From positions 1-52,398 of IMG/VR virus record IMGVR_UViG_3300009285_007659: a stretch of DNA of 52,398 bases; one strand, 5' to 3'. Below, piece by piece: positions 3,851 to 32,179 of this stretch. How positions within the stretch are numbered: position 1 is the first letter of the stretch; every line of letters begins with the position of its first letter. Made by a program: the position numbers and the translations under genes. Source of the DNA: a virus. The notes below the pieces were generated by a model. It was not told where the DNA came from. It saw only the letters and a program-made list of their open reading frames with translations, and did not search any database.

Positions 3851-4040
3851 AGAGAAATCAAAAGCAAGATTTAAAGTTGTTTTTGATTTTAATGACTTAG
3901 AATGGACTGCACAAATATTTGCAACATCAAAAGACGCAGATGTGCCTAGAGAAAAATTGAAATACATGGTTTTACAAGCTGTAATTGGATTTTGTGAAAA
4001 AATTGATGACGGAGAATTAGACGTCACCTTGGTACATTAA
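3837..4040 (+). CDS. small hypothetical protein, paralogue of the preceding gene
   Basis: 67 aa from ATG 3837, inside the end of the upstream gene; an in-frame GTG at 3825 would add four residues. The N-terminus is very basic (MKRHREKSKAR). The rest follows the pattern of its neighbour: beta-like FKVVFDF, a central Trp in LEWTAQIF, then helix KLKYMVLQAVIGFCEKIDD. The stop overlaps the start of the nuclease gene (TAATG). The pair may form a complex or bind nucleic acid, but that is a guess. No family assignment. Confidence 0.6.
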   Translation: MKRHREKSKARFKVVFDFNDLEWTAQIFATSKDADVPREKLKYMVLQAVIGFCEKIDDGELDVTLVH

Positions 4041-4858
4041 TGACACCATCAAAACTAAAAGTTATTTCTTTTTCAGCATTAATGGATTGGAATTATTGTC
4101 CACATTATTTCAAACTTACCAAAATTGATAAGGTTGTAGCTTTTCAAGGAAACGTTTATACATATTGGGGAACCATTCTACACCACAACCTTCAGGCAGT
4201 TTTAAAAAACACCACAACTCCACAGCAAGCATCTGAAAGGCTAACAAGAACTTGGAAAAAATTCTGTACATTGTTTAAACAAAAACAATGCGTAGGATGG
4301 GAAGTTTCTGCTTCGAAAGTTCTTTATGATATTCACAATATATTGAAACAACGTTTTGGAAATTATTCAGTTATTAATATAGAAAAAAGATTAGAATCAG
4401 ATGTAGGAGAACAATGGCCACAAAAATTTAAAGGATTTATAGATGTTGTCCTAAAGCTTGAAGACGACACTATAGTAATTATTGATATTAAATCTTGTTC
4501 TTCTCATTTTGCATTTAAAATGTTTAAAGATAAATTTAAAGATTATCAACTAATTTTATATAAAAATTTTTTAATGAAACAGTGTCCAGAGTATAAAAAT
4601 GTAAATACATTCTTTTTGACAGTAGAAAGGAATCCACGTTCAAAAAACCCTGTAGAATTACTAGAAATTACATCTGGCAAAATAAAGATTAAAAATTCTC
4701 TTGCTTGGCTCTATAAAGCTTTATTTTCGATAAACAATGAAATATTTCCAAAAAATAAATTAGCATGCCATAAATTCGCCTCTCCAGAAATACAAGAAGG
4801 AAAATCTTGTATTTTTCATGGAACTTCCCACTGCCCTGCCAAACGAATTAATTTCTAA
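4040..4858 (+). CDS. Cas4/RecB-like PD-(D/E)XK nuclease with predicted Fe-S cysteines
   Basis: 272 aa. The PD-(D/E)XK core is visible: a histidine motif (GTILHH, His48/49), Asp135 in GFIDVV, then Asp149-Ile-Lys151 in IIDIKS, followed by a QLILYK segment like the QxxxY motif of RecB/Cas4 nucleases. One Cys near the N-terminus (Cys20, in NYCPHYF) and three near the C-terminus (Cys242, Cys256, Cys264) match the one-plus-three arrangement that holds a 4Fe-4S cluster in Cas4 and AddB. Expected role: DNA exonuclease in phage recombination, replication or host DNA degradation. No Cas1/Cas2 or repeats are nearby, so a CRISPR role is unlikely. Confidence 0.75.
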   Translation: MTPSKLKVISFSALMDWNYCPHYFKLTKIDKVVAFQGNVYTYWGTILHHNLQAVLKNTTTPQQASERLTRTWKKFCTLFKQKQCVGWEVSASKVLYDIHNILKQRFGNYSVINIEKRLESDVGEQWPQKFKGFIDVVLKLEDDTIVIIDIKSCSSHFAFKMFKDKFKDYQLILYKNFLMKQCPEYKNVNTFFLTVERNPRSKNPVELLEITSGKIKIKNSLAWLYKALFSINNEIFPKNKLACHKFASPEIQEGKSCIFHGTSHCPAKRINF

Positions 4859-5413: not shown

Positions 5414-7804
5414 ATGACAGACAAACATAAGATCTTAACATTCGGAGATCATCCCCTGGTCCCTAGTGGTGTCGGCAGCCAGTCAAAATATTTATTTGAA
5501 GGACTTCTGAATACTGGAAAGTATAAGATTAGAAGTTTAGGTGGTGCTATTCGGCATGAAGATTATCGTCCATTGAAAATCAATGAATATGGCGATGATT
5601 GGATCATCTATCCTGTAGATGGATATGGAAATGAACATATTGTTCGGCAAATGCTAGAAGTAGAAAAGCCAGACGCTATATTCATGTTTACAGATCCTCG
5701 GTTTTATATTTGGCTCTTCAATATGTCGGATGAAATTCGCGATAGAGGAATTCCAATTCTTTATAATCATGTTTGGGATGCTTATCCTGTTCCTGATTTT
5801 AACAAAGGATTTTATGAATCAGTAGATTTTCTTGGATGCATTTCAAAACTTACACATGATATTGTATGTAAATTAGGTCTTGAAAATAATTCAGCATACA
5901 TTCCTCATGCCGTAGATGAAAATATTTTCAAGCCCATGGAAAAAGAAAATCTCTTAAAACAAAAAGCTTTTGCATTAGGAGAAAACAAAGATAAGTTTGT
6001 TGTTTTTTATAATAGTCGAAATGCTCGACGCAAAATGACATCTGATGTTGTCAAGGTATTTTCGTATTTACTCAAGGCAATTGATAAAGATGATGCATTT
6101 TTGTTGATGCATTGTGATCCTCATGACCAAGAAGGCGCTGATTTATTGGCTGTATCTAGAATGTTAGGATTAAAGCCTCACCAAATTAGCTTTTCAAATA
6201 AACGAGTCCCTCCAGAACAAGTTGCCTTATTCTATAATATTGCTGATGTAACTATTAATGTAAGTTGTTTGCCAGCAGGCACAAAAATATTGACAAACAA
6301 TGGTTACGAAAGCATTGAAAATATTAAAATTGGTGAAAACGTTCTTACGCACAAAGGACAATTCCGAAAAGTTGTAAAAACATATGAACGTCAGGAAACA
6401 GAAAAAGTTTTAAAAATTAAACCATTTTGCATGCCTGAAATTACTATAACCGAAGAACATCCTTTTTATGGAATCAAAAGAAATAATGTTCCAATGAACG
6501 AAGTAACTGATTCTATTTTAGATAAATTTGAATTCATCAAAGCTAAAGATTTAGAAAAGTCAGATTTAGTTGCATTTCCCATCATTCAAGATTCAGAATG
6601 CGTTTATGAAAATATTGAATATGATTTAAATGCACTACAAGAAGAGCATCAAATTTATAAATATCTTAAATTAAACGAAGATAAATCCAAGATTTCAGCG
6701 TGCTTTAATGATAATAAACATTTTATAAATAGAAAGTTGAAACTAAACAATAATTTATCTTATTTGATGGGAAGGTGGGTTGGAGACGGAAGCACAAACG
6801 CAATGTCAATTTGCTTCACTCCAGACGATACAGATGGTGTAAAAAAGTGCATCAATATTATGAAAGAAGTATTCGGGGTAACTCCTAGCTTTAGCATTGG
6901 AGAAACAGTAAACACAGTAACGCTATATCAAGCAGACAAACTTACTTCTATGTTATTTAAGAAAGTGTGTGGGGAATATTCTGCTGGAAAGAAAATTCCA
7001 AAGCATGTTTTGTATAATAAGGATAAAACTATTTTACAAAGTTTTATTCAAGGATATCAAGATTCAGACGGAACATTTTACGAAAAAAATATTAAAATTA
7101 CTACAATCTCAAAAGAACTAGCTTTACAATATTTTAGTGCAGTATTGCGGCTAGGATATAAACCATATTTCAGAATGGAAGAAAATGCTTCTGGGTATGA
7201 AAATGGAAAGACACAATATTTAGTAAAATATGCAACAACTGTAACAGAAAATTGTTCCAATAGAAGTTGGATTAGAGGAAAGTATTATCTATGTTCTATC
7301 GATAAAATTGAATTAATCGAACTAGAAAAGCCACTAACCGTATATAATTTAGAAGTGGAAGAAGACAATTCTTATGTTGCAGAAAATCAAATTCTCCATA
7401 ATTGTAACGAGGGATTCGGACTAAGTTGTTTAGAATCGTTAATGTGCGGTACTCCAGTCATTGTCAATAAGACAGGTGGATTGCAAGATCAGCCAGTTGA
7501 TGACGAAGGAAATGTCCTTGGAGCTTTAATTGAACCAGCAGTACGAAGTTTAACAGGCTCACAGCAAATTCCATACATTTATGACGAACGATGCACAGAT
7601 GAAGATATTCTTAATGCTTTATTGAAAATGTATAAAATGTCTTGGGATGAAAGAAAATTACTAGGACGTAAAGCACACAATTGGGCATTGAAAGCTTTTG
7701 GCATGAAGCAGATGGTTTCACGATGGGATGATGCTTTTGAAAAGTACATTTCGCTGTATAGAAACAATAAGAACTATCATCGAATTAAATTCAGCAAAGT
7801 ATAA
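5414..7804 (+). CDS. GT4-family glycosyltransferase interrupted by an intein
   Basis: 796 aa precursor. The exteins form a GT-B fold glycosyltransferase of the GT4 type. The N-terminal glycine-rich loop is PSGVGSQSKYLFEGL. The C-terminal donor-binding motif is EGFGLSCLE (EX7E), followed by LMCGTPVIVNKTGG. Residues 285-663 are an intein inserted two residues before this motif, so the unspliced protein should be inactive. After splicing the enzyme is about 417 aa, normal for GT4. It opens the glycan cassette and is followed 32 bases later by another GT4-containing gene. The donor sugar and acceptor cannot be read from sequence. Confidence 0.9.
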   Translation: MTDKHKILTFGDHPLVPSGVGSQSKYLFEGLLNTGKYKIRSLGGAIRHEDYRPLKINEYGDDWIIYPVDGYGNEHIVRQMLEVEKPDAIFMFTDPRFYIWLFNMSDEIRDRGIPILYNHVWDAYPVPDFNKGFYESVDFLGCISKLTHDIVCKLGLENNSAYIPHAVDENIFKPMEKENLLKQKAFALGENKDKFVVFYNSRNARRKMTSDVVKVFSYLLKAIDKDDAFLLMHCDPHDQEGADLLAVSRMLGLKPHQISFSNKRVPPEQVALFYNIADVTINVSCLPAGTKILTNNGYESIENIKIGENVLTHKGQFRKVVKTYERQETEKVLKIKPFCMPEITITEEHPFYGIKRNNVPMNEVTDSILDKFEFIKAKDLEKSDLVAFPIIQDSECVYENIEYDLNALQEEHQIYKYLKLNEDKSKISACFNDNKHFINRKLKLNNNLSYLMGRWVGDGSTNAMSICFTPDDTDGVKKCINIMKEVFGVTPSFSIGETVNTVTLYQADKLTSMLFKKVCGEYSAGKKIPKHVLYNKDKTILQSFIQGYQDSDGTFYEKNIKITTISKELALQYFSAVLRLGYKPYFRMEENASGYENGKTQYLVKYATTVTENCSNRSWIRGKYYLCSIDKIELIELEKPLTVYNLEVEEDNSYVAENQILHNCNEGFGLSCLESLMCGTPVIVNKTGGLQDQPVDDEGNVLGALIEPAVRSLTGSQQIPYIYDERCTDEDILNALLKMYKMSWDERKLLGRKAHNWALKAFGMKQMVSRWDDAFEKYISLYRNNKNYHRIKFSKV
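6266..7402 (+). mobile_element. intein with LAGLIDADG homing endonuclease
   Basis: A 1137-bp (379-residue) in-frame insertion. It begins with Cys (CLPAGTKILTNNGYESIE, block A), has a TEEH in the block B position, two LAGLIDADG-like helices (LMGRWVGDGS and FIQGYQDSDGTF), and ends with block F/G residues (VYNLEVEEDNSYVAEN) and the terminal His-Asn followed by Cys +1. This is a complete class 1 intein with all splice-junction residues present, so splicing is expected. It interrupts the conserved donor-site motif of the glycosyltransferase, typical of inteins that favour conserved sites. Confidence 0.92.
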
Positions 7805-7836: not shown

Positions 7837-10041
7837 ATGCAAAAAATTAGAACTTTAGTTAAAGGACCTCTTTTGACTCAAAGTGGATACGGTGTGCATA
7901 GTCGTCAAATTTTTCAATCGCTCATCAATGATCCTATGTTTGATGTATATGTAGAGCCAATCAACTGGGGCATCTGTCCATTTCTTACGGAAAGTACAGA
8001 ATTAAGACTTAAAATCTTGCAATGTGCTGACAAATATGTGTTGGCTACAAAAAATAAGCAAACCAATTGGGATTTATTTCTTCACATTACAATTCCAAAT
8101 GAATTTCAGCGCCTTGGCAAATACAATATTGGTATTACTGCAGGCGTTGAAACAGACAGAGTTTCTCACACTTGGATACAAAAATGTGAAGAAATGGATC
8201 TAATCATAGTTCCTAGCGATCACAGTTTAAAATCTTTCACAAATACCACTGTAGAATGGCATAACCAAGAAACAGGCCAAAAAGGAAATTTAAAGATTAC
8301 AAAACCTGTTGTCGTTTGTCATGAAGGTGTAGATACAGAAATTTTCAAAAAATTAACAAACGAAGAATATCATGAATATACTACAAGAAATTTTGATTTT
8401 GAATCTGATTTCAATTTCCTTCACATAGGTCAATGGGGTCATGGTGGATTTGGCGAAGACAGGAAAAACATTGGAAACTTAATTAAATTCTTTATTGAAG
8501 AATTTAAAGGACGAAAAGATGTCGGCTTAGTTCTAAAGATTAATATTGGTAGAAATTCAGTAGCAGATTACAAGTCATGTCTCAATAGAATACAGCAGAT
8601 TAAGTCAAACTTCAAGTTAGAAGAAGTTCCTCCAATTTATTTAATTCATGCCAGCTTAACTGATAAAGAAATGTCGGCTTTATATAATCATCCAAAAATC
8701 AAAGCTTTCGTTTCTTTGTCTGCGGGAGAAGGTTTTGCGTTGCCATTATTAGAAGCTGCTGCATGTGAATTACCAATTATCGCTACGAATTGGTCTGGTC
8801 ATTTGGATTTTCTTAATAAAGGAAAGTTTAGTGCTGTTGAATATGATTTAAAGGAAATTCCAAAATCTGTAGTTTGGAAGGATATTTTGATTGAAGGTAG
8901 CCGTTGGGCAGTTGTCAAAGAACAAGATGCCAAACATCGAATGAAAAAAATGACATCTGCATATTCTTTGCCAGTTCAGTGGGCAAAAGATTTAGCAACA
9001 AAAATCAAAGAAGAGTTTGATGTTAACGTTGTTTATAAAGACTTTGTGAATGTTCTAAAGTTAGCAACACAGGAGAGTTTAGCCCCTCAACTTAATCCTA
9101 TTGATTATCTTAAGTCATTTATCGACACTCCTGATGGCTACAATGTTCTTTATACCATGCCAATATCTGCAGGTGATGTCTTAATGTCAACAGCAGTATT
9201 GGATGGGTTAATTAAAGAACTTCCAGAAAATCATAAAATTTATTTTGCAACAGACCCACGATATTGGAATATTTTAGACGGCAATCCTCATGTTCATAAA
9301 GTAATTCCATGGAATCAATCTATGATTAATATTGAAATCATGGAAGAAGTATTTGATTTAGTTTTAACACCAAATATTGCAACTCAATTTACTTTTTCAA
9401 ATTGGGTGCGCAAAGGGCAAGGACGACTTATTGTTGAAGAATTCGCCAACCACTGTCAATGCAAATTAGGTGATTATTATATCAAAACAGATGATTCTAT
9501 ATTTAATAAAGTAAAGAATCTAAAGACACAGGATGATACAGTTCCTTATGTGACTGTTCATGTAGGATCTGGCAAAGATCAATGGGAAGCCAGAAAATAT
9601 GTAGACTGGCAAGAAATTGTCAGCAACCTTAAAGACTATATACCTAATTTAAAAATTGTACAGGTAGGTTCACGAGACGAAGGTAAGCTAGAAAATGCCG
9701 ACATTGATTTGCGCGGCGAGACAAGTGTGCATCAACTTGCTTCAGTTCTTAAAAGCGGCTTGCTACATTTAGGAATTGATAGTTTACCTATGCATATTTG
9801 TGCTGCTCTTAATGTCCCTGTAGTGGCTTTGTTCGGCTCTTCATATGCCAAATCAACAGGTCCATGGTTCAAAAACATTGAATCATCAAAATTTATTCTA
9901 TTGGAACCAGAAAACCGTATGGGATGCGAAAAGGCTTGCTATAAGCATTCTTGCCGTGTTAACAAGGAAAACCCATGCATTAATATGATTGACCCATTAA
10001 GTGTATTTAAAGCATGTGTAACATTGCTAAGACAACCTTAA
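7837..10041 (+). CDS. fused GT4-GT9 (heptosyltransferase-like) bifunctional glycosyltransferase
   Basis: 734 aa with a ribosome site (CGGAG) upstream. Residues about 1-400 are a GT4-like GT-B domain: GPLLTQSGYGVHSRQIF at the start, and a donor motif EGFALPLLEAAACELP. Residues about 425-734 look like the GT9 heptosyltransferase family: LYTMPISAGDVLMSTAVL, then VHVGSGKDQWEARKY, LGIDSLPMHICAALNVPVVALFG. Both halves keep their conserved motifs, so one polypeptide may add two sugars in succession. GT9 enzymes usually transfer heptose from ADP-heptose, and an HldE-like kinase lies downstream at 32550. The acceptor is unknown. Confidence 0.85.
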   Translation: MQKIRTLVKGPLLTQSGYGVHSRQIFQSLINDPMFDVYVEPINWGICPFLTESTELRLKILQCADKYVLATKNKQTNWDLFLHITIPNEFQRLGKYNIGITAGVETDRVSHTWIQKCEEMDLIIVPSDHSLKSFTNTTVEWHNQETGQKGNLKITKPVVVCHEGVDTEIFKKLTNEEYHEYTTRNFDFESDFNFLHIGQWGHGGFGEDRKNIGNLIKFFIEEFKGRKDVGLVLKINIGRNSVADYKSCLNRIQQIKSNFKLEEVPPIYLIHASLTDKEMSALYNHPKIKAFVSLSAGEGFALPLLEAAACELPIIATNWSGHLDFLNKGKFSAVEYDLKEIPKSVVWKDILIEGSRWAVVKEQDAKHRMKKMTSAYSLPVQWAKDLATKIKEEFDVNVVYKDFVNVLKLATQESLAPQLNPIDYLKSFIDTPDGYNVLYTMPISAGDVLMSTAVLDGLIKELPENHKIYFATDPRYWNILDGNPHVHKVIPWNQSMINIEIMEEVFDLVLTPNIATQFTFSNWVRKGQGRLIVEEFANHCQCKLGDYYIKTDDSIFNKVKNLKTQDDTVPYVTVHVGSGKDQWEARKYVDWQEIVSNLKDYIPNLKIVQVGSRDEGKLENADIDLRGETSVHQLASVLKSGLLHLGIDSLPMHICAALNVPVVALFGSSYAKSTGPWFKNIESSKFILLEPENRMGCEKACYKHSCRVNKENPCINMIDPLSVFKACVTLLRQP

Positions 10042-12005: not shown

Positions 12006-12956
12006 ATGAAACGTAAAGATGTTCAGTTCTGTATAGATTTAGCTTCAGACAAAGATGGATTTTTTTTATCTGAAGAATATTTAGGTTCAAAAATTTATCA
12101 TAAATGGAAATGTAAAAAGGGACATATATTTTTATCTAAACCTAATTACGTCCAACAAGGAAACTGGTGCGCAATTTGTTCTAATACTGCAAAAAAAACA
12201 ATTAAAGATTGTATTGAATTGGCAAAACAGAAAAATATTTGTTGCCTATCCAGTGAAATTGTTAACTCCCAAACATATTTAAAATGGCAATGTGAATACA
12301 ATCACATATGGCAAGCTTCTTATTCATCTGTAAAGGCAACAACAAAATATGTATGCCCTTATTGTGCAAAATGTGCTAAATATACAATTAATGACTGCAT
12401 TCAATATGCTAAAAATAAAAATGGATATTGTTTATCTCTAGAGTATAAAAATGCAAAGTCTATATTAGTTTGGCAATGTTCAAAAGGCCACACATGGAGA
12501 ACATCATTTGGAAATGTGAATTTCAATAATTCTTGGTGTTCTCAATGTAGCATCTACAAATCACAAAGTAAATTATACGACATATTAAATGAAATATATG
12601 AAAATTGCACATTATATTTTAATTACAGAGGTTTTGACTGGCTAAATACATCAAAAACTGGAAAACAAGAAATAGATATTTTTATAAAATCAAATATAAG
12701 TACACTAACTATTGCTATTGAATATGATGGCCAACAACATTTTTTTCCAATTAAAAAATTTGGCGGCAAAAAAAATTTTTTAAAAACACAACAAAGAGAT
12801 AAAATTAAACATGAAAAAATCAGACAACATCGAAATGATATAAATTTTTTTATTAGATTTAATTATTTAGATAGTCTCACAAAAGAAAATGTTTTAAATA
12901 AATTAAAACAATTTAATATACCAACAACAGCAAATTCACCAGAATTATTGCTATAA
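12006..12956 (+). CDS. homing-type endonuclease: three zinc-ribbon repeats plus PD-(D/E)XK-like domain
   Basis: 316 aa. The first 185 residues are three repeats of about 60 residues. Each has a helix (CIDLASDK, CIELAKQK, CIQYAKNK), a W-x-C-x(3)-GH/NH stretch and a CxxC pair (CAICS, CPYCA, CSQCS), as in DUF723-type treble-clef DNA-binding proteins. The C-terminal part (GFDW, EIDIFIK, IAIEYDGQQHF, then a basic helix) resembles Vsr-like PD-(D/E)XK nucleases. Such genes usually behave as free-standing homing endonucleases between phage genes. It interrupts the glycan genes and has no strong ribosome site, so it looks like a later insertion. Confidence 0.75.
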   Translation: MKRKDVQFCIDLASDKDGFFLSEEYLGSKIYHKWKCKKGHIFLSKPNYVQQGNWCAICSNTAKKTIKDCIELAKQKNICCLSSEIVNSQTYLKWQCEYNHIWQASYSSVKATTKYVCPYCAKCAKYTINDCIQYAKNKNGYCLSLEYKNAKSILVWQCSKGHTWRTSFGNVNFNNSWCSQCSIYKSQSKLYDILNEIYENCTLYFNYRGFDWLNTSKTGKQEIDIFIKSNISTLTIAIEYDGQQHFFPIKKFGGKKNFLKTQQRDKIKHEKIRQHRNDINFFIRFNYLDSLTKENVLNKLKQFNIPTTANSPELLL

Positions 12957-17513: not shown

Positions 17514-18947
17514 GTGTCCAGAATTCTTCTCGTAAACCCTCCATTTTATAGGTTTTTAGGTTCTCACTATAACGGAAATAATTTAGGAATTGCTTATATT
17601 GCTTCCGTTCTTAATCAAAATAATCATACAGCATATGTTTATAATGCTGATTTTATGGACATTTATGAGTACAAAAGACTAAAAGACATTTTTGAAACAT
17701 TTAATGATTATAAAAAATATTTTGATAATCCAAATGAATATCCAATCTGGGATGATGTAGTAAATAAAATTTTAGAATTTAATCCTGATTGGATAGGATA
17801 TACTTCTTACACTGCAAATGTAAAAACTATAGACATACTTTCTGCTAAGGTTCGCCAAAAAGCACCTGAAATTAGGCAAGTTGTTGGCGGTCCTCATGCT
17901 ACTTTGGATCAAGGACTTCTAAGTAGACTAGCCAATATTGATTACACCGTATCTAGAGAAGGCGAATATGTCATGCTAGATCTAGTAAACGGGAAAGATT
18001 TAAAATCCATCAAAGGGTTGTCATTCAGAGATGAAGATGGATTTATTCATAATAGTGGAGATTCAGACGCATTAAATATTGACACCATACCATTGCCAGA
18101 ACGAGACAAGTTATGGGGCGTTTCTCTTGAGCAGAAAAAAATGGTAGATGTCAGCTACGTTATTACTATCCGTGGGTGCCCGGCTTCGTGCCTGTATTGT
18201 TCCAGCCCATTCCATTGGAAAAGAAATGCAACTAGGCTCAGAAGTCCAGAAAATGTCATTGAAGAACTGAAACTTATTAAGCAAAACTATTGGTACGACA
18301 AACAATATGATTATTCAGCATCAGGAAATGTAGGTCATAAAAATAAGTTAATTATCAAAGACAATACAATTGTATATTTTGTAGATGATGTTTTCAGCAT
18401 CAACAAGAAAAGAGTTAAAAAACTGCTTCGTATGATGATTGATAATAATTTAAACATGCCATTTAAATGTGAAATAAGAGCAGATCAACTAGATGAAGAA
18501 ATATGTGAACTATTGCATGCTGCGAATTGTCACAGAGCCAAAGTAGGATTTGAGTCAGGAAGCAACAAAATATTAAAACAAATTAAAAAAGGGGAAACAC
18601 GAGAGCAAATGATGCATGGAGCATCATTATTAAAGAAAGCCAACGTTCCATTTACAGCATATTTTATGACAGGATTCCAAAACGAAACAAATGAAGACTT
18701 AAAGCAAACCATAGATTTTGCTAAAAAAATTGAAGCAGATTATTATAGTTTAAGTATACTAGCGCCTTATTATGGAACAGGAATGTATTTTGATTTAATT
18801 AAACAAGGATATAAATTGGACAAAGAACCATGGGAATATTTTTATCATCAATCTGGAAAACTAATGATAAATTCCAATCTTGATGAAAATTTAATAAAAG
18901 AATATCTTCAATTAAATGAGACTATCAATGGAAAAGGATATATTTAA
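17514..18947 (+). CDS. B12-binding-domain radical SAM protein
   Basis: About 477 aa from GTG 17514 (protein starts MSRILLVNPPF); an upstream in-frame start at 17478 would lie inside the previous gene. Residues about 1-170 form a cobalamin-binding-like Rossmann domain (ILLVNPPF, GIAYIASVL, GGPHATLD). The radical SAM motif CPASCLYC places Cys at 222, 226 and 229 for the 4Fe-4S cluster, with a GFESGS-type strand later. Such enzymes perform hard C-methylations, epimerisations or rearrangements. The N-terminal domain lacks the classic DxHxxG cobalamin motif, so cofactor use is uncertain. Its place among sugar genes suggests an unusual sugar modification. Confidence 0.8.
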   Translation: MSRILLVNPPFYRFLGSHYNGNNLGIAYIASVLNQNNHTAYVYNADFMDIYEYKRLKDIFETFNDYKKYFDNPNEYPIWDDVVNKILEFNPDWIGYTSYTANVKTIDILSAKVRQKAPEIRQVVGGPHATLDQGLLSRLANIDYTVSREGEYVMLDLVNGKDLKSIKGLSFRDEDGFIHNSGDSDALNIDTIPLPERDKLWGVSLEQKKMVDVSYVITIRGCPASCLYCSSPFHWKRNATRLRSPENVIEELKLIKQNYWYDKQYDYSASGNVGHKNKLIIKDNTIVYFVDDVFSINKKRVKKLLRMMIDNNLNMPFKCEIRADQLDEEICELLHAANCHRAKVGFESGSNKILKQIKKGETREQMMHGASLLKKANVPFTAYFMTGFQNETNEDLKQTIDFAKKIEADYYSLSILAPYYGTGMYFDLIKQGYKLDKEPWEYFYHQSGKLMINSNLDENLIKEYLQLNETINGKGYI

Positions 18948-19692
18948 AATTTGTAGAGTTTGCCAGCAGAATAAATCATTAGACAATTTTTTATTCGGAA
19001 AAGGATGCAAACAAAACAAAAGAGCGACATGCAAACAGTGTACTAAAAATGGATTAGGGTATTTTTCACAAATTCAAAAATTAAAAAATGATGGACTGAA
19101 AAAATGCTCTAGATGTCATACTATAAAAAAACTCGAAGAATTTTACAAACAAAAATCCATAGAAGACAAACTAATAAGTTCATGCAAATTATGTTGGAAA
19201 GATCGAAATAAACAACAAAGATTGGACAATCTAGAACAATATAAAATTAGAAAAAAATTGTTCTACCAAAAAAACAAAGAGATTTGTTCATTAAGAGCTA
19301 AACTTCGGCGACAAAAGAATAAACACAATTTAAATAAATATAGAACAATTAAAAGACGGACAGATTTACACTGTAGATTACGAGACTATTTACGATCAAG
19401 ATTAAATAAAGCTCTTAAAAAAAATAAAAAAGTAGGCTCTCACATAGAAAGTCTAGGATGTTCCGTAGAAGAATTAAAGTTATTTCTTGAACAAAAATTT
19501 TACAACAATCCAAACACAAATGAAAAAATGACTTGGGATAATTATGGTCTACATGGGTGGCACATAGATCACATTATACCATTATCATCATTTAATTTAA
19601 CCAACATACAGCAGATGAAAATAGCGTGTCATTATACCAACTTACAACCACTGTGGGCATATGACAATCTAAGCAAAGGAAATAAATTATGA
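18916..19692 (+). CDS. HNH endonuclease, homing type
   Basis: 258 aa (a second ATG at 18928 would give 254). The N-terminus has CxxC pairs (CRVCQQN, CKQC, CSRCHTIKKLEEFY, CKLC), forming two zinc-ribbon modules. A very basic middle helical region precedes the HNH core near the C-terminus: GWHIDHIIPLSSF, then the conserved Asn in YTNLQPLWA and a final DNLSKGNKL. This is a free-standing phage HNH homing endonuclease. It overlaps the end of the radical SAM gene by 32 bases and the start of the next glycosyltransferase gene by four, so it was inserted without breaking the operon. Confidence 0.85.
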   Translation: MRLSMEKDIFKICRVCQQNKSLDNFLFGKGCKQNKRATCKQCTKNGLGYFSQIQKLKNDGLKKCSRCHTIKKLEEFYKQKSIEDKLISSCKLCWKDRNKQQRLDNLEQYKIRKKLFYQKNKEICSLRAKLRRQKNKHNLNKYRTIKRRTDLHCRLRDYLRSRLNKALKKNKKVGSHIESLGCSVEELKLFLEQKFYNNPNTNEKMTWDNYGLHGWHIDHIIPLSSFNLTNIQQMKIACHYTNLQPLWAYDNLSKGNKL

Positions 19693-20489
19693 AACCTCAA
19701 ATTTCTATTTGTGTTCCTTCTTGGAATAGTTTAAATTATTTAAAAATTCTATACAAAGGAATTAAAAGAAATACTAAAATTAATTATGAATTGATTGTAC
19801 ACGACAATGGATCTACAGACGGAACAGAAGATTGGCTCAAAGAAAATAATATCATTTATACTAAATCTAATAAAAATTTAGGATTTTGCGGAGTAAATAA
19901 TGCTTTGAAGCAATCATCTGCTGATTTTGTAATGATTAAAAATACAGATATGTATCCATTGCCATTTTATGATATAGAAATTATTAAGCAAATTAAATTA
20001 TTTCAATCTAAAAAAATCAATAGATTTACTATTTCGTGCTGTTTGATCGAGCCTCTTGGTGCTAATCCTGAATATACAATTTCTTATTTTGGACATGATT
20101 TCAACACGTTTCAAGAAGATAATTTAATAAAAGATTTCTTAGATAATAGAAGTGTAAAATATAAAAAAGAATCTACAATCCAATATTCTCATCCTATTTT
20201 AATTCCTAAATTTATGTTAGAAGAAATTGCTTATTTGGATGAAAAATACTTTCCAGGATGGTCAGTAGACCACGATTTGCCAAAATCACTTTACGAAAAA
20301 GGTTGCAGAAATTTTGTAATGTTAGGAAATTCTAGGGTTTATCATTTTATTTCCAAAACATTTACAAAACTACCAAACGAAGTTAGAAGTGCTTCTGGTC
20401 AAGATATTTTTGAAAAAAAATGGCATATGACCGTAGATGAATTTAGGAACAGTTTAAATTTAAAACAACCATTCGATATGAGGAAATAA
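19689..20489 (+). CDS. GT2-family glycosyltransferase
   Basis: 266 aa with an ATGA overlap with the upstream gene and a one-base overlap with the next. GT-A signatures: ISICVPSWNSLNYL, IVHDNGSTDGTEDWL, NKNLGFCGVNNAL and VMIKNTDMYPLP. The C-terminal part has a DHDLP segment that could be the catalytic base region. Close paralogue of the protein at 15332, with a shared N/H-T-D-M-Y motif in the DxD position. No transmembrane segment, so cytoplasmic. Donor and acceptor unknown. Confidence 0.8.
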   Translation: MKPQISICVPSWNSLNYLKILYKGIKRNTKINYELIVHDNGSTDGTEDWLKENNIIYTKSNKNLGFCGVNNALKQSSADFVMIKNTDMYPLPFYDIEIIKQIKLFQSKKINRFTISCCLIEPLGANPEYTISYFGHDFNTFQEDNLIKDFLDNRSVKYKKESTIQYSHPILIPKFMLEEIAYLDEKYFPGWSVDHDLPKSLYEKGCRNFVMLGNSRVYHFISKTFTKLPNEVRSASGQDIFEKKWHMTVDEFRNSLNLKQPFDMRK

Positions 20490-21445
20490 TGAATTACTTA
20501 ATTTTTGGTGGAACTGGTTCTTTAGGAAAAGTTTTAATCGAAAGGCTTTTATCTAAAGATAAGTTAGTAGCAGTATTTTCTCGTGACGAAGCAAAACATG
20601 TAGTAATTAAGTCTATGTTCCCTTCTGTAAAAGTTTTTATGGGAGATGTTAGAGACTATAATTCTGTTTTTAGCGCCATTTCCGCATATAAACCATCCGT
20701 TCTTATCAATGCTGCTGCATTGAAAAATGTTCCTGAATGCGAAGAAAATCCAACAGAATCAGTTAAAACAAATGTTTTAGGATGCGATAATGTAATGCGA
20801 GCTGCTTCTATTCTAGCAAGCAACAGCAGACCCATTAAGGCCCTATTTGTATCCACAGACAAAGCATGTTCACCTTGCGTTGCGTATGGAATGTCTAAAG
20901 CACTTGCTGAACGTGTAGCTTTAAGCTATAATTCTAAAAATATTACAGTAAATGTAACTCGATATGGAAATGTTTTAGAAAGTCGTGGTTCGGTAATTCC
21001 ATTTTTTAAACAAAGAATCAAAGAAAAGAAAACACTTCCAGTAACTCATAAAGATATGACAAGATTTTTTATGAGCCTTTCTCAGTCTGTTGATTTAATT
21101 GAGCGAGCTTTAAAAGATAGTGATGGTGGAAAAGTATTTGTACCTTATGTAAAGTCTGCCTCTATTAATGACTTGGCAGAAGTAATGTGTGAGCGTTATG
21201 GATATTTCAAATCTATGATTGAATACACTGGGATTAGAGCTGGAGAAAAAATAGATGAACTTTTAATATCTAATTCTGAAGTTTCGCGAACACAAAAAGA
21301 TGACGATATTTTTATGATTCACAGTATGTTTACGAATAAAAAGTTCAACGATATTCAGGATGAATATTCTTCTGGTGATGCGCAAAATTGGATGGACAAA
21401 GAAGAGCTTTATAAATTTCTAAAACATCATGGAGTATTTTCGTGA
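20489..21445 (+). CDS. CapE/FnlA-like UDP-GlcNAc 4,6-dehydratase (5-inverting type)
   Basis: 318 aa extended SDR. The NAD(P)-binding motif is GGTGSLGKVL. The catalytic segment has STDKACSP and YGMSK (YxxxK), and later MTRFFMSLSQSVDLI and GIRAGEKIDE are typical of the polysaccharide_synt_2 family (CapE, FnlA, WbjB, PseB). The next two genes form a CapF-like pair, so the best match is CapE. This enzyme turns UDP-GlcNAc into the 4-keto-6-deoxy-L-arabino sugar, the first step to UDP-L-FucNAc or UDP-L-PneNAc. The PseB alternative (pseudaminic acid) is less likely because no PseC or PseI is present. Confidence 0.82.
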   Translation: MNYLIFGGTGSLGKVLIERLLSKDKLVAVFSRDEAKHVVIKSMFPSVKVFMGDVRDYNSVFSAISAYKPSVLINAAALKNVPECEENPTESVKTNVLGCDNVMRAASILASNSRPIKALFVSTDKACSPCVAYGMSKALAERVALSYNSKNITVNVTRYGNVLESRGSVIPFFKQRIKEKKTLPVTHKDMTRFFMSLSQSVDLIERALKDSDGGKVFVPYVKSASINDLAEVMCERYGYFKSMIEYTGIRAGEKIDELLISNSEVSRTQKDDDIFMIHSMFTNKKFNDIQDEYSSGDAQNWMDKEELYKFLKHHGVFS

Positions 21446-22152
21446 GAGTTGCAATTACAGGACACAGAGGCTTCATAGGAAAAAATATATCTATTTTTCT
21501 AAAAGAAAAAGAATACGAAATACAAGAGCCGTCTGCAAATGTTCTCAATACAGGATGTATAGACGATTGGATTAATCAATGCGATGCTGTTGTGCACGCA
21601 GCAGGAGTCAACAAAGGTACCGAAAACAATATTTTAGATGTCAATATTGTAGGAACATATAACATAGCTAAAGCATGTTATGTTAATAAAAAAAAATTAA
21701 TTGTCCTTAATTCTACATATAAAACTCCGAGTGCTTACAAAGTCAGCAAAGAAATTGCAGCTAGTATATTGCACAACTTCAATGACTATTTAAATACCTC
21801 ATTTGTTAATATAGTAATGCCAAATGTTATAGGTCCTCATTGCCTACCGTTTTATAATTCTTTTGTGACTACATTAGTTTGGTCTATTGCTAGGGGAAAA
21901 GAATATGAAAGTTTAATAACAAACGAATCAAAGATTTTAACATTAGTTCATGTTGACGATGTTTCAGATGCAATAGAAAAGCATCTCAAAATAGACTATA
22001 TCGGAGGAAACTCTTATTTAGATGACAAGACCATTAACATTACAATAAAAGAAATTATTGAAATATTAACAACAGATTGCAAACACAAATATTCAGAAAT
22101 ATTTCTCAACCTTCTAGAATGGTATAAAAGCAATGTATGCAGCCCATATTGA
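21442..22152 (+). CDS. CapF/FnlB-like SDR reductase domain (cupin encoded separately)
   Basis: 236 aa with a GTG start overlapping the upstream stop (GTGA). Motifs: ITGHRGFIGKNI (Rossmann loop), HAAGVNKGTE, then AYKVSKEIAASI (YxxxK) and PNVIGPHCLPFYNSFVTTL, the last two closely following the pattern of CapF. CapF is a single protein of about 370 aa with this SDR domain followed by a cupin. Here translation stops at the domain boundary and the cupin is encoded by the overlapping next gene in another frame. Predicted step: NADPH reduction of the CapE product to UDP-2-acetamido-2,6-dideoxy-L-talose. Confidence 0.8.
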   Translation: MRVAITGHRGFIGKNISIFLKEKEYEIQEPSANVLNTGCIDDWINQCDAVVHAAGVNKGTENNILDVNIVGTYNIAKACYVNKKKLIVLNSTYKTPSAYKVSKEIAASILHNFNDYLNTSFVNIVMPNVIGPHCLPFYNSFVTTLVWSIARGKEYESLITNESKILTLVHVDDVSDAIEKHLKIDYIGGNSYLDDKTINITIKEIIEILTTDCKHKYSEIFLNLLEWYKSNVCSPY

Positions 22153-23861: not shown

Positions 23862-25457
23862 ATGCCACATTCATTTAAAGTATGCATATTAACAGCCGGA
23901 AAAGGCAATAGGTTAGGTGAAAAGACAAAATATTTTAATAAGGCTTTGTTGAGAGTTGGAAATAAAGCTGTTATTTCACATACAATAGACTGTTTTGATA
24001 ATGAAACAGAATTTGTTATTGCATTAGGATACAGAAGCAATTTAGTTAAACAATATTTAACAATTGCTCATCCAGAAAAACACTTTACTTATGTTGAAGT
24101 AGACAAATATTCAGAGCCGGGAAGTGGACCTGGTTATGCTCTTTTGAAATGTGAAGAAAAGTTACAGTGTCCTTTTGTGTATGTATCATGTGATTCTATG
24201 TTGGATAGTACATCATTCGACAATATTTTAGAAAACTCAAATAAAAACATTATTACATATGATTTTATAGATAATAAAAAATGTAAAGAATATTGTACAA
24301 TTGAAGAAGATTTTGGAAACATTATTTGTCATTATGACAAAACCAATAACGGTACCAATAAAGCATTTACAGGTGTAGCCTTTGTAAAAGATTATGATAT
24401 TTTTTGGAATAATTTAAAAATACAAGATTATACTGTAAACGGAGAAATTCAAGCGGCTCCTGTATTTTTTTCGTTGCCAAACCCAGTAGCATTACACACC
24501 TATTGGGATGATGTAGGAAACCTAGAAGGATTAGAAAAAGCACAAAAAGAATTTTGTGGAATTCAAAATTTAGACAAAATTGACGAAGAATTGTATGTCG
24601 TAAATGGAAAAGTAATCAAATATTTCCACAATGAAAGTATGGTGAAAAACAGAGTACAACGAGCAAAATATCTTAAAGGGGCAGTTCCAGAAATTTTACA
24701 ACAGACGAACAATTACTATTCATACGATTTTATACCAGGACATGATTTATTTAAATTAACAGAACCTCACAAAGTTGTGCAATCGCTTTTTGAAAAAACG
24801 CACAACACCATATGGAAACCAATTGAATTAGATAATATCAATTCAAAAATATTTAAAGATGTATGTAAAAAATTCTATTTTGACAAAACTTTGTCTAGAT
24901 TAGATAAGTTATGTATAGAAAAAAATATTGTTGACAGAAAACAATACATAAATGATACATTAGTTCCCCAACTACCAGACATCTTTAAACATATTAATTG
25001 GGATTATCTATCAAATGGCATTCCAGTTAATTTTCATGGAGACTATAACTTTTCAAACATTATATGGAGTGGGGAAAACAAGTTTACTTTTTTGGATTGG
25101 CGCCAAGATTTTGGAGGATGTATAGAATTTGGAGATGTTTATTATGACTTAGCAAAAATGTATCATTCATTTTTATTTCCTCACGAAAGCGTTAAAGAAA
25201 ATAAATTCTATGTTAATGAAATTTCTAATGATGAAACAAAAACATTCATAGAAGTACCAATAAATCTTGAAAAATCTAAAGATATTTTTGAAAATTTTGT
25301 TAAAAACTATGGAAATTATGATTTATTTAAAATAAAACTATTGACTGGAATTGTTCTTTTGAACATGAGTCCTCTTCATGAATCTCCAATAGATAAGTAT
25401 CTTTTCTATTTTAGCAAGCACTATCTTTACAGCACAATACGGAGCGAACATGGATGA
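23862..25457 (+). CDS. fused sugar-1-phosphate nucleotidyltransferase and APH-like kinase
   Basis: 531 aa. Residues about 1-235 are a nucleotidyltransferase (ILTAGKGNRLGEKTKYFNKALLRVG, the GxGxRxG...K loop; later YVSCDSMLD metal site and GYALL). Residues about 250-531 are an aminoglycoside phosphotransferase/choline-kinase-like fold with the catalytic HGDYNFSNII and LDWRQDFGG (Brenner and DFG-like motifs). The two activities in one protein imply phosphorylation and then NTP activation of one substrate, as in LicC-LicA-like or sugar-1-kinase/pyrophosphorylase pairs. Substrate unknown. The HAD phosphatase that follows overlaps it by eight bases. Confidence 0.78.
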   Translation: MPHSFKVCILTAGKGNRLGEKTKYFNKALLRVGNKAVISHTIDCFDNETEFVIALGYRSNLVKQYLTIAHPEKHFTYVEVDKYSEPGSGPGYALLKCEEKLQCPFVYVSCDSMLDSTSFDNILENSNKNIITYDFIDNKKCKEYCTIEEDFGNIICHYDKTNNGTNKAFTGVAFVKDYDIFWNNLKIQDYTVNGEIQAAPVFFSLPNPVALHTYWDDVGNLEGLEKAQKEFCGIQNLDKIDEELYVVNGKVIKYFHNESMVKNRVQRAKYLKGAVPEILQQTNNYYSYDFIPGHDLFKLTEPHKVVQSLFEKTHNTIWKPIELDNINSKIFKDVCKKFYFDKTLSRLDKLCIEKNIVDRKQYINDTLVPQLPDIFKHINWDYLSNGIPVNFHGDYNFSNIIWSGENKFTFLDWRQDFGGCIEFGDVYYDLAKMYHSFLFPHESVKENKFYVNEISNDETKTFIEVPINLEKSKDIFENFVKNYGNYDLFKIKLLTGIVLLNMSPLHESPIDKYLFYFSKHYLYSTIRSEHG

Positions 25458-27031: not shown

Positions 27032-27829
27032 ATGAAAAAAGTAGGTTTTATGATCGTTTATAACGACGCAGATTATATTGATTTTGCAATAAATTCTGTG
27101 AAAAATTGGTTTGACGAATTTGTGATTATAGAAGGTGCTTTTGAAATAACCATGAAATGTGGAATGCCACCGCGATCAAACGATGGAACACTAGATATAA
27201 TTTGGAAATATGTAGATAATAAAAAAATATTTCTTAAACAAGCAAATCTCAGAGAACACAAATTACATTATCAAATTGGATTGGATTTTGCCAAAGAAAG
27301 AAGCGCAGACTGGGCCATTATGGTAGATTCTGATGAGATATGGACAGAAGCTGCAAAAAAATTGGTTGATGCAAAGTTAAAGACAGCAGATAAAATTGGT
27401 GCATATGAATTTAGAATCAAAGAATATTGTTTTGTGAATGATTTTAATACCTGGTATCCAGGAGAATATCCAAGAATTTTCAAAGTAACTCCTGAAGCTT
27501 ATTTCGTGGCTGATAATGAAGTAGCGTGGCCAGATCACGGAAAGCACGAAGACAGAGGTCGTGCTCAAAATCACATCCATTTATTATCGCCAACAATGAA
27601 AATCTTTCATTACGGCTATGTAAGACGAAAAAAACGTTGGCGATTAAAACAAGATTACATGTATGAAAAAGATGGAAATCCAGTAAATTTGCAACATAAA
27701 TTAGAAGGAAACACATACATTCTTCCTTCTGATATTCCAGTCTATAAATTTGACGGCAACCATCCAGAATGTATGAAAACACATCCATTTTATGGCAAAA
27801 CTGCCAATGAGATAATTTACGGAGAGTGA
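27032..27829 (+). CDS. GT2-type glycosyltransferase
   Basis: 265 aa starting directly after the upstream stop. GT-A signature: MIVYNDADYIDFAINSV, VIIEGAFEITM, DGTLDIIWKYVDNKKIF and WAIMVDSDEIWTEAA, with D-S-D as the metal-binding motif. It is a clear paralogue of the protein at 30013 (VIVEGAYQQTI, KYVDNKKIF, MLIIDGDEVYDE). The C-terminal half is rich in Trp and His. No membrane segment. The VEGA-type start is shared with a group of phage and bacterial glycosyltransferases of unknown specificity. Confidence 0.8.
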   Translation: MKKVGFMIVYNDADYIDFAINSVKNWFDEFVIIEGAFEITMKCGMPPRSNDGTLDIIWKYVDNKKIFLKQANLREHKLHYQIGLDFAKERSADWAIMVDSDEIWTEAAKKLVDAKLKTADKIGAYEFRIKEYCFVNDFNTWYPGEYPRIFKVTPEAYFVADNEVAWPDHGKHEDRGRAQNHIHLLSPTMKIFHYGYVRRKKRWRLKQDYMYEKDGNPVNLQHKLEGNTYILPSDIPVYKFDGNHPECMKTHPFYGKTANEIIYGE

Positions 27830-27831
27830 AA

Positions 27832-28824
27832 GTGGCTAAATATATTGTTACAGGAAATGCAGGATTTATAGGAAGTCATCTTACCGAACGACTTTTAAGA
27901 GAAGGTCATGAAGTTGTTGGATTAGATGATCTATCAACAGGTAATTTAGAAAATTTACAAACTTGTTTTAAAAACAAAAACTTCCAATTTATTAAATTGG
28001 ATATTTCAGATTGGCATCAATTAACAAAAAGTTTTTCATGCTTTAAAAATGCAGAAGCTGTTTTTCATGCAGCCGCATGTGCTCGAATTCAACCTAGCGT
28101 TTACAATCCTTCAAGAACACACGAAGTTAACACAAATGGCACTTTTAATATTTTAGAAATTATGAGAATGACAGGAGTAGATAAAATAATTTATTCCACT
28201 TCATCGTCTTGTTACGGAAAAAAGAATAAAACTCCATTCAAAGAGACTATGCTACCAGACTGTCAAACACCGTATTCTGCTACAAAATATCAAGGAGAAA
28301 TTTATTGCAAAACATGGGGAGATATTTACGGAATTAAAAATTGTAGTCTACGTTATTTCAATGTTTATGGACCGCGTTCTCCGTTGGTAGGACAATATGC
28401 TCCTGTAATAGGATTGTTCTTTAGACAAGTTCTACAAGACAATTCTCCTATTACTGTAGTTGGGGAAGGATTTCAACGTCGCGATATGACTTATGTCGAT
28501 GACGTTGTTGATGCAAATATAAAAGCTGTAGAAAAACTGTCCGATCCAGAAGCATCTCAGAAAGTTTCTGGATTTACAATCAACATTGGAACAGGCATGA
28601 ATTATACAATTATAGAAATAGCAAAACGAATCAAAAACATACTTTACGGATATAAAAAAGATATTCAAATCATTCACATTCCTGAACGATATGGAGAAAC
28701 TCCTATTACGCTAGCAGATAATAATTTAGCAAAAAAACTATTAAACTGGGAACCTACAATTTCAATTTCGCAAGGACTTGAAGCTCTTAGAATTCATTAT
28801 TTAGATACGGTATTTAAAAAATGA
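27832..28824 (+). CDS. NAD-dependent sugar epimerase (UDP-glucose/UDP-GlcNAc 4-epimerase type)
   Basis: 330 aa from GTG 27832, preferred because GGAG at 27821-27824 is well spaced from it; a GTG at 27826 is also possible. Extended SDR signatures: VTGNAGFIGSHL, DDLSTGNLENL, FHAAACARIQPS, STSSSCYG and YSATKYQGE (YxxxK), then LRYFNVYGPR and VDDVVDANI. This pattern matches UDP-hexose 4-epimerases such as GalE and WbpP. It would supply UDP-Gal- or UDP-GalNAc-like donors. It overlaps the next GT by four bases. Confidence 0.85.
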   Translation: MAKYIVTGNAGFIGSHLTERLLREGHEVVGLDDLSTGNLENLQTCFKNKNFQFIKLDISDWHQLTKSFSCFKNAEAVFHAAACARIQPSVYNPSRTHEVNTNGTFNILEIMRMTGVDKIIYSTSSSCYGKKNKTPFKETMLPDCQTPYSATKYQGEIYCKTWGDIYGIKNCSLRYFNVYGPRSPLVGQYAPVIGLFFRQVLQDNSPITVVGEGFQRRDMTYVDDVVDANIKAVEKLSDPEASQKVSGFTINIGTGMNYTIIEIAKRIKNILYGYKKDIQIIHIPERYGETPITLADNNLAKKLLNWEPTISISQGLEALRIHYLDTVFKK

Positions 28825-30786: not shown

Positions 30787-31310
30787 AAAAAATCAAAGAT
30801 TCTCTATCTTTAGCATTCTCAAAAATATATTTCAAAATTAAACATTTTAATAATTGGATTGTAAAAAGTATTCAATACTCCATATTCTTGTGGAATGATT
30901 ATGATTGGGACTGGAGTTATATATTCACGCTTTTCCAATACAAATTAAAAAGAACAAGAGTTTGCATTGAAAAAAGCACCACAATGAACGAATCTTATCA
31001 AAAAAGAATCGTCAAACAATTAAAATATTCAGAATTTTTACTCGAAAGAATCATTAAAGACGAATACATAAATTCTTTAATGAACAAGCACAAACAAAAA
31101 TGGGGAGAACATATCATGTGGTTTACTCCATGTGAAAATGGTATGCGACAACTTCATCAAACATACAAAAGAATTGTCACAGAAGAAGATAAAATGCAAG
31201 AAAGACAAGATTTTTTAAATATGATGAATGAAGAAGAGCGATTAAAAGCTAAAGATGTTGAAAGACTGTTTAGGCACATTGAAAAATACTACAGATATTG
31301 GTGGGACTGA
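30762..31310 (+). CDS. hypothetical protein of a common phage type
   Basis: 182 aa. Rich in aromatic residues near the start (FLWNDYDWDWSYIFTLFQYKL), followed by basic and helical segments and a final acidic helix ending HIEKYYRYWWD. The DYDWDW-type start recurs in uncharacterised proteins of many phages, from general knowledge of that family; no function is known to me. No clear membrane helix. The start lies inside the upstream glycosyltransferase gene and its stop overlaps the next start (TGATG). It may be a remnant of a replication/nucleotide module inserted in the cassette. Confidence 0.55.
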   Translation: METILSFLKKIKDSLSLAFSKIYFKIKHFNNWIVKSIQYSIFLWNDYDWDWSYIFTLFQYKLKRTRVCIEKSTTMNESYQKRIVKQLKYSEFLLERIIKDEYINSLMNKHKQKWGEHIMWFTPCENGMRQLHQTYKRIVTEEDKMQERQDFLNMMNEEERLKAKDVERLFRHIEKYYRYWWD

Positions 31311-32179
31311 TGAAATTTAAAATTGGAATAGTAGGTGCAGGATTTGTCGGAAGTGCAGCAGATATTTGTTTTGAATCAATAGCAGATATTAAAATTTACG
31401 ACAAATATAAGCCATCTGAATCATTGGAAAGCGTAGTAGAACATTCAAAGATTATTTTCTTATGTCTGCCTACTCCAATGGCAGAAGATGGCAGTTGTGA
31501 TACTTCTATAATTCAAAATACGATATCAGAAATTGACCGCATTTCAGACTTCAGAAGGTTGCTGATAATCAAATCTACAGTACCTCCAGGAACGTCTCAG
31601 AGGCTCGCTGAGCGATTTTCACGTCATGGCTTTATCTTCAACCCAGAATTTCTTACAGAAGCAAATTTCATCGATGATTTTATAACTCAGGACAGAATAC
31701 TTCTGGGATTGACTTCTGGCGTACTTCAAAAAGAAGTAAATCTAATTGAATCTTTCTATGAACAATTTATTAAAAAACAAAAACATCCAGCAGTAATTAA
31801 ATTTTGTTATTCAGAAGAAGCAGAAATGGTAAAGTATACTGCAAATTCTTTTCTAGCTACTAAAGTAGCATATTTCAATGAAATCTATCAAATATGTCAA
31901 TCTTTAAATCTGGATTATGACAGAGTAATAGAATTAGTTACTTTAGATAAACGAATTGGAAATACACATGTAAAAGTTCCTGGTCCTGACGGTTTGTTGG
32001 GGTTTGGAAAAAAATGTCTTCCGAAAGACTTAAATGGATTAATTGCATTGGCAAGGAAAAACAACTGTGATACAATTATTTTAGATTCTGTGTGGTCAAA
32101 AAATCTTTTGATTAGACAGAAATATGATTGGGAAGAAATTCCTGGAGCTACAACACAAACAAACTTTAAGGAACACTGA
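31310..32179 (+). CDS. UDP-glucose/GDP-mannose dehydrogenase-like protein lacking the C-terminal domain
   Basis: 289 aa from ATG 31310, overlapping the upstream stop. N-terminal Rossmann loop GIVGAGFVGSAA; then LCLPTPM, IKSTVPPGTSQ, FNPEFLTEANFIDDF, the helix VKYTANSFLATKVAYFNEI, and the catalytic Cys at about residue 236 in GFGKKCLPKDLNGL. All motifs of the NAD-binding and central domains are present. Family members are usually 390-450 aa; the C-terminal UDP-binding domain is missing. Predicted to oxidise a UDP-sugar to the uronic acid, although a shortened enzyme may differ. Confident on family, less on activity. Confidence 0.8.
   Translation: MKFKIGIVGAGFVGSAADICFESIADIKIYDKYKPSESLESVVEHSKIIFLCLPTPMAEDGSCDTSIIQNTISEIDRISDFRRLLIIKSTVPPGTSQRLAERFSRHGFIFNPEFLTEANFIDDFITQDRILLGLTSGVLQKEVNLIESFYEQFIKKQKHPAVIKFCYSEEAEMVKYTANSFLATKVAYFNEIYQICQSLNLDYDRVIELVTLDKRIGNTHVKVPGPDGLLGFGKKCLPKDLNGLIALARKNNCDTIILDSVWSKNLLIRQKYDWEEIPGATTQTNFKEH

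Follow-up and report, generated by a model that had tools for sequence, protein, structure and literature searches.

A glycosyltransferase gene with an intein at its donor-binding motif

The window, i.e. the whole stretch of viral DNA analysed here (52,398 nucleotides), corresponds to the entire IMG/VR virus record IMGVR_UViG_3300009285_007659. The reading frame at positions 5414-7804 is open throughout in the standard code, without stop or frameshift. Judged from its sequence, this frame is a GT4 glycosyltransferase gene interrupted by a complete class 1 intein with a LAGLIDADG nuclease domain. The gene, its parts and its two syntenic neighbours are as follows:

4040..4858, plus strand: upstream syntenic neighbour, exonuclease / PD-(D/E)XK-like gene (context, outside the intein)
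5414..7804, plus strand: GT4 glycosyltransferase gene with in-frame intein, 796-aa precursor (ORF, family models)
5414..6265, plus strand: N-extein, 284 aa, with the C-terminal end NIADVTINVS
6266..7402, plus strand: intein, 379 aa, Cys1 to His378-Asn379, precursor residues 285-663
6266..6295, plus strand: splicing block A, CLPAGTKILT, with the Cys1 nucleophile (invariant in five same-site inteins)
6440..6463, plus strand: splicing block B, ITITEEHP (TxxH; TEEH, TGEH or TPEH in the five same-site inteins)
6755..6793, plus strand: first LAGLIDADG motif, LSYLMGRWVGDGS, including LMGRWVGDGS (acidic DG pair in 5/5 same-site inteins)
7034..7075, plus strand: second LAGLIDADG motif, LQSFIQGYQDSDGT, including FIQGYQDSDGT (GY...DG in 5/5 same-site inteins)
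7340..7402, plus strand: splicing blocks F and G, VYNLEVEEDNSYVAENQILHN
7403..7405, plus strand: Cys+1 (extein Cys285), second nucleophile
7403..7801, plus strand: C-extein, 133 aa
7409..7435, plus strand: EX7E donor-binding motif, EGFGLSCLE (extein Glu287 and Glu295)
7837..10041, plus strand: downstream syntenic neighbour, GT4-GT9 (heptosyltransferase-like) fusion with uninterrupted EX7E (SAGEGFALPLLEA)

A reading of this DNA made from the letters alone (the sequence-only reading) had described a complete intein of 379 residues in a GT4 enzyme of 417 residues, two residues before the EX7E motif. Both sizes are exactly as given there, and all the elements named, i.e. Cys1, TEEH, two LAGLIDADG motifs, His-Asn and Cys+1, are present, the C-terminal splice junction being YNLEVEEDNSYVAENQILHN/C (ILHN/C; here and below the slash marks the splice junction). 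The precursor exceeded the cut-offs of the family models LAGLIDADG_3 (33.2 bits, cut-off 22.5), TIGR01445 intein_Nterm (25.0 bits, cut-off 24.5) and TIGR01443 intein_Cterm (19.3 bits, cut-off 15.6). The match to the general Pfam model Intein_splicing was significant (E 6e-7), yet with 29.7 bits below that model's own cut-off of 35.8. No second match to the intein model was found in the window.

The assignment of the host to GT4 holds as well. The precursor scored 42.3 bits against the Pfam model Glycos_transf_1 (cut-off 26.4), and the score rose to 59.3 bits once the intein was removed in silico, with the match spanning residues 185-328 of the joined 417-aa product. The insertion bond lies between extein Ser284 and Cys285, and Glu287, the first Glu of EX7E, follows two residues further on. 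In GT4 enzymes, EX7E supports the binding of the nucleotide sugar (PMC12856342, PMC3898925). Because the intein splits this donor-binding loop, the enzyme would be inactive before splicing, and splicing is probably needed for its activity.

The fold of the complete precursor was predicted from an 82-row alignment (mean pLDDT 88.7); an earlier prediction from a 4-row alignment (pLDDT 51) was left out of the analysis. In Foldseek comparisons the predicted precursor matched the solved homing inteins TliVMA (7qsu, E 1.2e-19) and PI-SceI (1vde, E 8e-18) as well as the GT-B enzymes PimB' (5e-10), MshA (6e-10), BshA (2e-9) and WaaG (about 6e-8), indicating that a Hint splicing fold and a GT-B fold are both present in the model. 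Among the best 50 matches to viral models, those bearing a name are inteins whose hosts are reductases, terminases, polymerases, methyltransferases and the like; no glycosyltransferase is named among them.

Inteins and empty sites at the same bond

With a DNA pattern of the C-terminal junction (HN/CxEGFG) we found four more viral contigs carrying an intein at the identical bond of orthologous GT4 genes. These complete copies (L203, L204, L209 and L212) contain inteins of 383-398 aa, and their precursors are 36-37% identical to the window precursor over the whole length. A five-way alignment of the inteins shows no exception at Cys1, T-x-x-H, His-Asn or the DG of either LAGLIDADG motif, and Cys+1 follows in all five precursors. 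A tree of 53 viral inteins unites the five in a single clade (SH-aLRT 93; 100 for the four without the window intein); they are therefore regarded as one intein allele family, here called GT4-a. Pairwise, the five inteins are 28-49% identical. The window gene shares 40-43% of its extein and 28-32% of its intein residues with the other four, and the corresponding values for L203 and L204 are 58% and 44%; in nine of ten pairs the intein is less conserved than the extein. Furthermore, each of the five inteins has a lower G+C content than its own extein. A strict pattern of the N-terminal junction yielded no further locus; this pattern is unable to match most of the four true relatives, which lack YN..D.T or T6.

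Uninterrupted orthologues are present in the annotated phages Flavobacterium phage immuto (99% of the extein covered, E 1e-64), Microcystis phage Mel-JY01 and Rhodothermus phage RM378 and in the record LR756508. They cover 97-99% of the extein and have nothing in place of the 379 residues. Intein-free homologues containing these same residues, which would have refuted the sequence-only reading, did not turn up. At the site these four read TSNEGWGL, ASNEGFGI, SSNEGFGI and SNREGWGL, respectively, compared to VS/CNEGFGL in the window.

An alignment search of viral contigs added 80 relatives, most of them 43-51% identical, all of them uninterrupted and with Asp as residue +1. Another search, built around the intein-bearing same-site host genes, yielded 79 more (56-66% identical to L203), again all uninterrupted, with mostly Tyr or Phe at +1, Cys in six and Ser in two. 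The total of 159 intein-free relatives set against five interrupted genes does not give an intein frequency, as both searches rank by similarity and interrupted genes rank lower. Single-sequence searches with extein peptides returned no viral relatives, because such peptides are too specific and alignments are required.

The gene order nuclease - GT4 - GT is common to the window and to intein-free and intein-bearing relatives, indicating the same locus in different phages. Flavobacterium phage immuto and the other syntenic phages possess the orthologous enzyme with the same neighbours, but without the intein. An assembly artefact and two separate genes joined by error were both rejected as sources of the arrangement, which recurs in four independent contigs; a large natural glycosyltransferase insertion was rejected, too, since it is absent from the 159 relatives and the intein motifs are complete.

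Cys at +1 was found in 5/5 invaded genes, whereas only 6/159 uninvaded genes have it (Fisher p 5e-7, a value that is overstated, since splicing chemistry itself partly demands Cys+1 and the genes share ancestry). A comparable +1 dichotomy between invaded and empty genes (Ser/Pro) is known from the haloarchaeal MCM-d inteins, where it was ascribed to co-conversion (PMC10643990).

Two further observations concern the intein-free enzymes. In Microcystis phage Mel-JY01 (L084:2995-4486) the orthologous GT4 is annotated as two ORFs with an odd stretch before YVPHG; this may be a frameshift, a small insertion or a sequencing error. The phage GT4 subfamilies L086-L165 and L214-L292 differ just before EX7E, with Asp-Ala in the former versus Tyr-Ala or Phe-Ala in the latter and a few cases of Ser-Asn or Cys-Asn. 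These residues are possibly linked to donor specificity.

Inteins in other viral sugar enzymes

A search with the window intein led to 80 viral loci, several of whose host genes encode glycosyltransferases. Other GT4 enzymes are interrupted at YSN/SEGMGLGQIE (L008), at FAETF/CCTAVE (L034 and L035, FAETF/CCTAVENGL, inside EX7E of a C-terminal GT4) and at GGGFE/CNALE (L003, inside EX7E). With their inteins removed, L008, L034 and L003 all scored above the cut-off as group 1 glycosyltransferases. With the second Glu of EX7E as reference, the inteins are inserted at -11/-10 in the window and its four relatives, -10/-9 in L008, -6/-5 in L034 and -5/-4 in L003, i.e. four invaded bonds within seven residues. 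The inteins of L008, L034/L035 and L003 fall outside the window clade in the 53-intein tree (L003 as a weakly supported neighbour) and thus point to independent invasions, each of three further intein lineages splitting viral GT4s at a bond of its own within the motif. The sequences therefore support an independent invasion of EX7E at four bonds by unrelated inteins. In the haloarchaeal MCM gene four intein sites likewise lie close together, in one catalytic domain (PMC10643990). Those belong to one orthologous gene of cellular genomes, whereas the GT4 sites share one motif and are spread over diverse viral GT4 genes.

The viral protein encoded by L034:1-4470 and L035:1-4467 is large and combines GT2 and GT4 domains. 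The viral GT4 gene L003:1117-4671 contains two inteins, the second of which (368 aa) is inserted at the GFRKG motif (NVTH/CYDEETRILT...VVSGN/SGFRKG). Inteins were found in GT2 glycosyltransferases, too (L018:2644-4824, L040:1426-4800 and L072:2404-4539); those of L018 and L040 are located at R/CDDD, apparently the DxD metal-binding motif, and the L040 enzyme is also fused to a methyltransferase. Another host from a sugar pathway is a viral RmlD / NAD-dependent epimerase gene (L007:2653-4785).

In annotated phage records, the window intein matched inteins in DNA methyltransferases, ribonucleotide reductases, thymidylate synthase and portal genes, in agreement with the earlier remark that a glycosyltransferase is an unusual host. 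The closest ones are 24-26% identical over the whole window intein and differ in the host protein: ribonucleotide reductase in Lactococcus phage AM4/949, methyltransferase in Lactobacillus phage Nyseid and thymidylate synthase in Aeromonas phage PS1. No glycosyltransferase intein was among the matches of four queries in 50,697 phage records, and none was found in plasmid searches. The C-junction pattern had 26 matches in 84,980 bacterial and archaeal genomes, none of them an intein or a glycosyltransferase; it covers the spelling HN/CxEGFG only, and cellular glycosyltransferases may carry inteins with other junctions. No glycosyltransferase intein was found in a search of open-access papers on inteins and glycosyltransferases. 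The mycobacteriophage inteins are reported to reside in nucleic-acid-binding proteins only (PMC5050341). Glycosyltransferases thus appear to be undescribed as a class of intein hosts; we claim no priority.

Origin and significance of the intein

The element itself is of a known kind, a class 1 homing intein. With the PI-SceI / VMA type it shares Cys1, TxxH, two LAGLIDADG motifs, His-Asn and Cys+1, an apparently sporadic distribution, the insertion at a conserved functional motif and, as in TliVMA (7qsu), the predicted folds of the splicing and nuclease domains. It differs from the solved inteins in sequence (about 17% identity) and in its host, a glycosyltransferase instead of an ATPase or nucleic-acid enzyme. 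In our view a class 1 LAGLIDADG homing intein has very probably invaded the GT4 gene for a GT-B fold enzyme of a phage and persists there as a mobile parasite rather than as a regulator that is required. This reading is based on the intein anatomy, the empty sites, the same-site relatives, the apparently scattered distribution and the +1 association. The near-absence from relatives, the apparent scatter and the retention of the nuclease motifs in 5/5 inteins fit a mobile parasite, and a selfish mobile element is what the intein most likely is. Recurrent invasion of viral glycosyltransferase genes by class 1 homing inteins is the best explanation for the data as a whole.

From known intein chemistry we infer the following course. 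After translation the intein would fold, Cys1 and Cys+1 would perform acyl shifts and Asn379 would cyclise, releasing the intein (379 aa) and an enzyme of 417 aa whose donor-binding EX7E loop is whole again. In mixed infections the freed intein may cut intein-free glycosyltransferase alleles and would then be copied in by recombination or repair. Thereby, the flanking +1 codon could be converted to Cys.

Alternatively, the insertion might be old and vertically inherited within one GT4 clade, with an inactive or nearly inactive nuclease and with losses in the intein-free members. Intein and extein diverge in parallel (L203-L204; window versus the others), and the five intein-bearing genes were together in one clade in a smaller sample of the host-gene tree, so the number of transfers is unsure. 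After closer intein-free relatives had been added, the tree of 62 host genes, a quick one whose deep branches are weak, required five intein changes, of which strongly supported branches impose at least three, and L203 paired with the intein-free L214 (66% identical). The exact loss of an intein is rare, and the catalytic Asp positions are kept in all five inteins. We consider vertical descent unlikely on these grounds. Concerning the timing of homing, the joined-site DNA carries no footprint of a recent event, the flanks of the five being no more alike mutually than to empty genes. Together with the lower intein than extein identity in nine of ten pairs, these ordinary flanks suggest that none of the five was recently copied from another, and an intein that had resided there for long and been lost repeatedly would leave a similar picture.

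That viral glycosyltransferases are a major overlooked intein niche, with EX7E invaded independently at four bonds, is supported by the sequences, but the further-reaching reading in which splicing is also tuned, e.g. by nucleotide sugar or redox state, timing glycosylation in some phages, is quite improbable. The switch suggested by the sequence-only reading, which would require splicing conditional on redox, temperature or substrate to delay or time glycosylation, is likewise quite improbable. The intein sits in the donor pocket, where it probably leaves the unspliced enzyme dead; it has been kept over deep divergence (28-32% identity to the other four), and there are documented cases of other inteins that splice conditionally (PMC5790916). 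The switch nevertheless finds no support, because almost all relatives manage without an intein; furthermore, the intein appears scattered among the host genes, the nuclease motifs conserved in 5/5 would be superfluous for a pure regulator, and no regulation-specific feature was found. Least credible is a cleavage-only Hint-type (bacterial-intein-like) domain or a defective intein in a gene that is dead or yields two fragments: the general Pfam intein model stays under its cut-off and there are weak matches to PT-HINT and a bacterial-intein-like domain (2lwy), but every class 1 residue, Cys+1 and His-Asn among them, is intact and shared by five genomes, and the extein is intact and conserved on both sides with EX7E kept and no stop or frameshift.

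With the preferred reading of a mobile parasite, glycosyltransferases join the proteins that host homing inteins, and with them phage genes which modify cell surfaces or phage parts. Lists of intein hosts contain mainly nucleic-acid enzymes and ATPases, which has been taken as a functional preference. The repeated independent invasion of the GT4 donor motif, and of GT2, suggests that the common factor may simply be conserved catalytic DNA that a nuclease keeps recognising. The five same-site alleles and their many empty relatives provide a ready system for studying homing, +1 co-conversion and conditional splicing in phages. For annotation, some caution is advisable, as glycosyltransferase ORFs of about 800 aa on viral contigs may conceal an intein.

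The gene belongs to a sugar cassette. The rich sugar-nucleotide set of the window (positions 20489-21445, 21442-22152, 27826-28824, 31298-32179 and 23862-25457) comprises three matches to the nucleotide-sugar epimerase PHROG, a UDP-glucose dehydrogenase and a nucleotidyltransferase fused to an APH-like kinase. The 316-aa protein encoded at 12006-12956 combines zinc-ribbon repeats with a C-terminus that resembles a nuclease (EIDIFI..IEYDGQQHF); it matches PHROG endonuclease and homing endonuclease families and is possibly a free-standing homing nuclease of the same cassette. A second candidate for such a nuclease is the 258-aa endonuclease VII / HNH-like protein (phrog_1035) at 18916-19692, whose gene overlaps the end of a B12-binding radical SAM gene.
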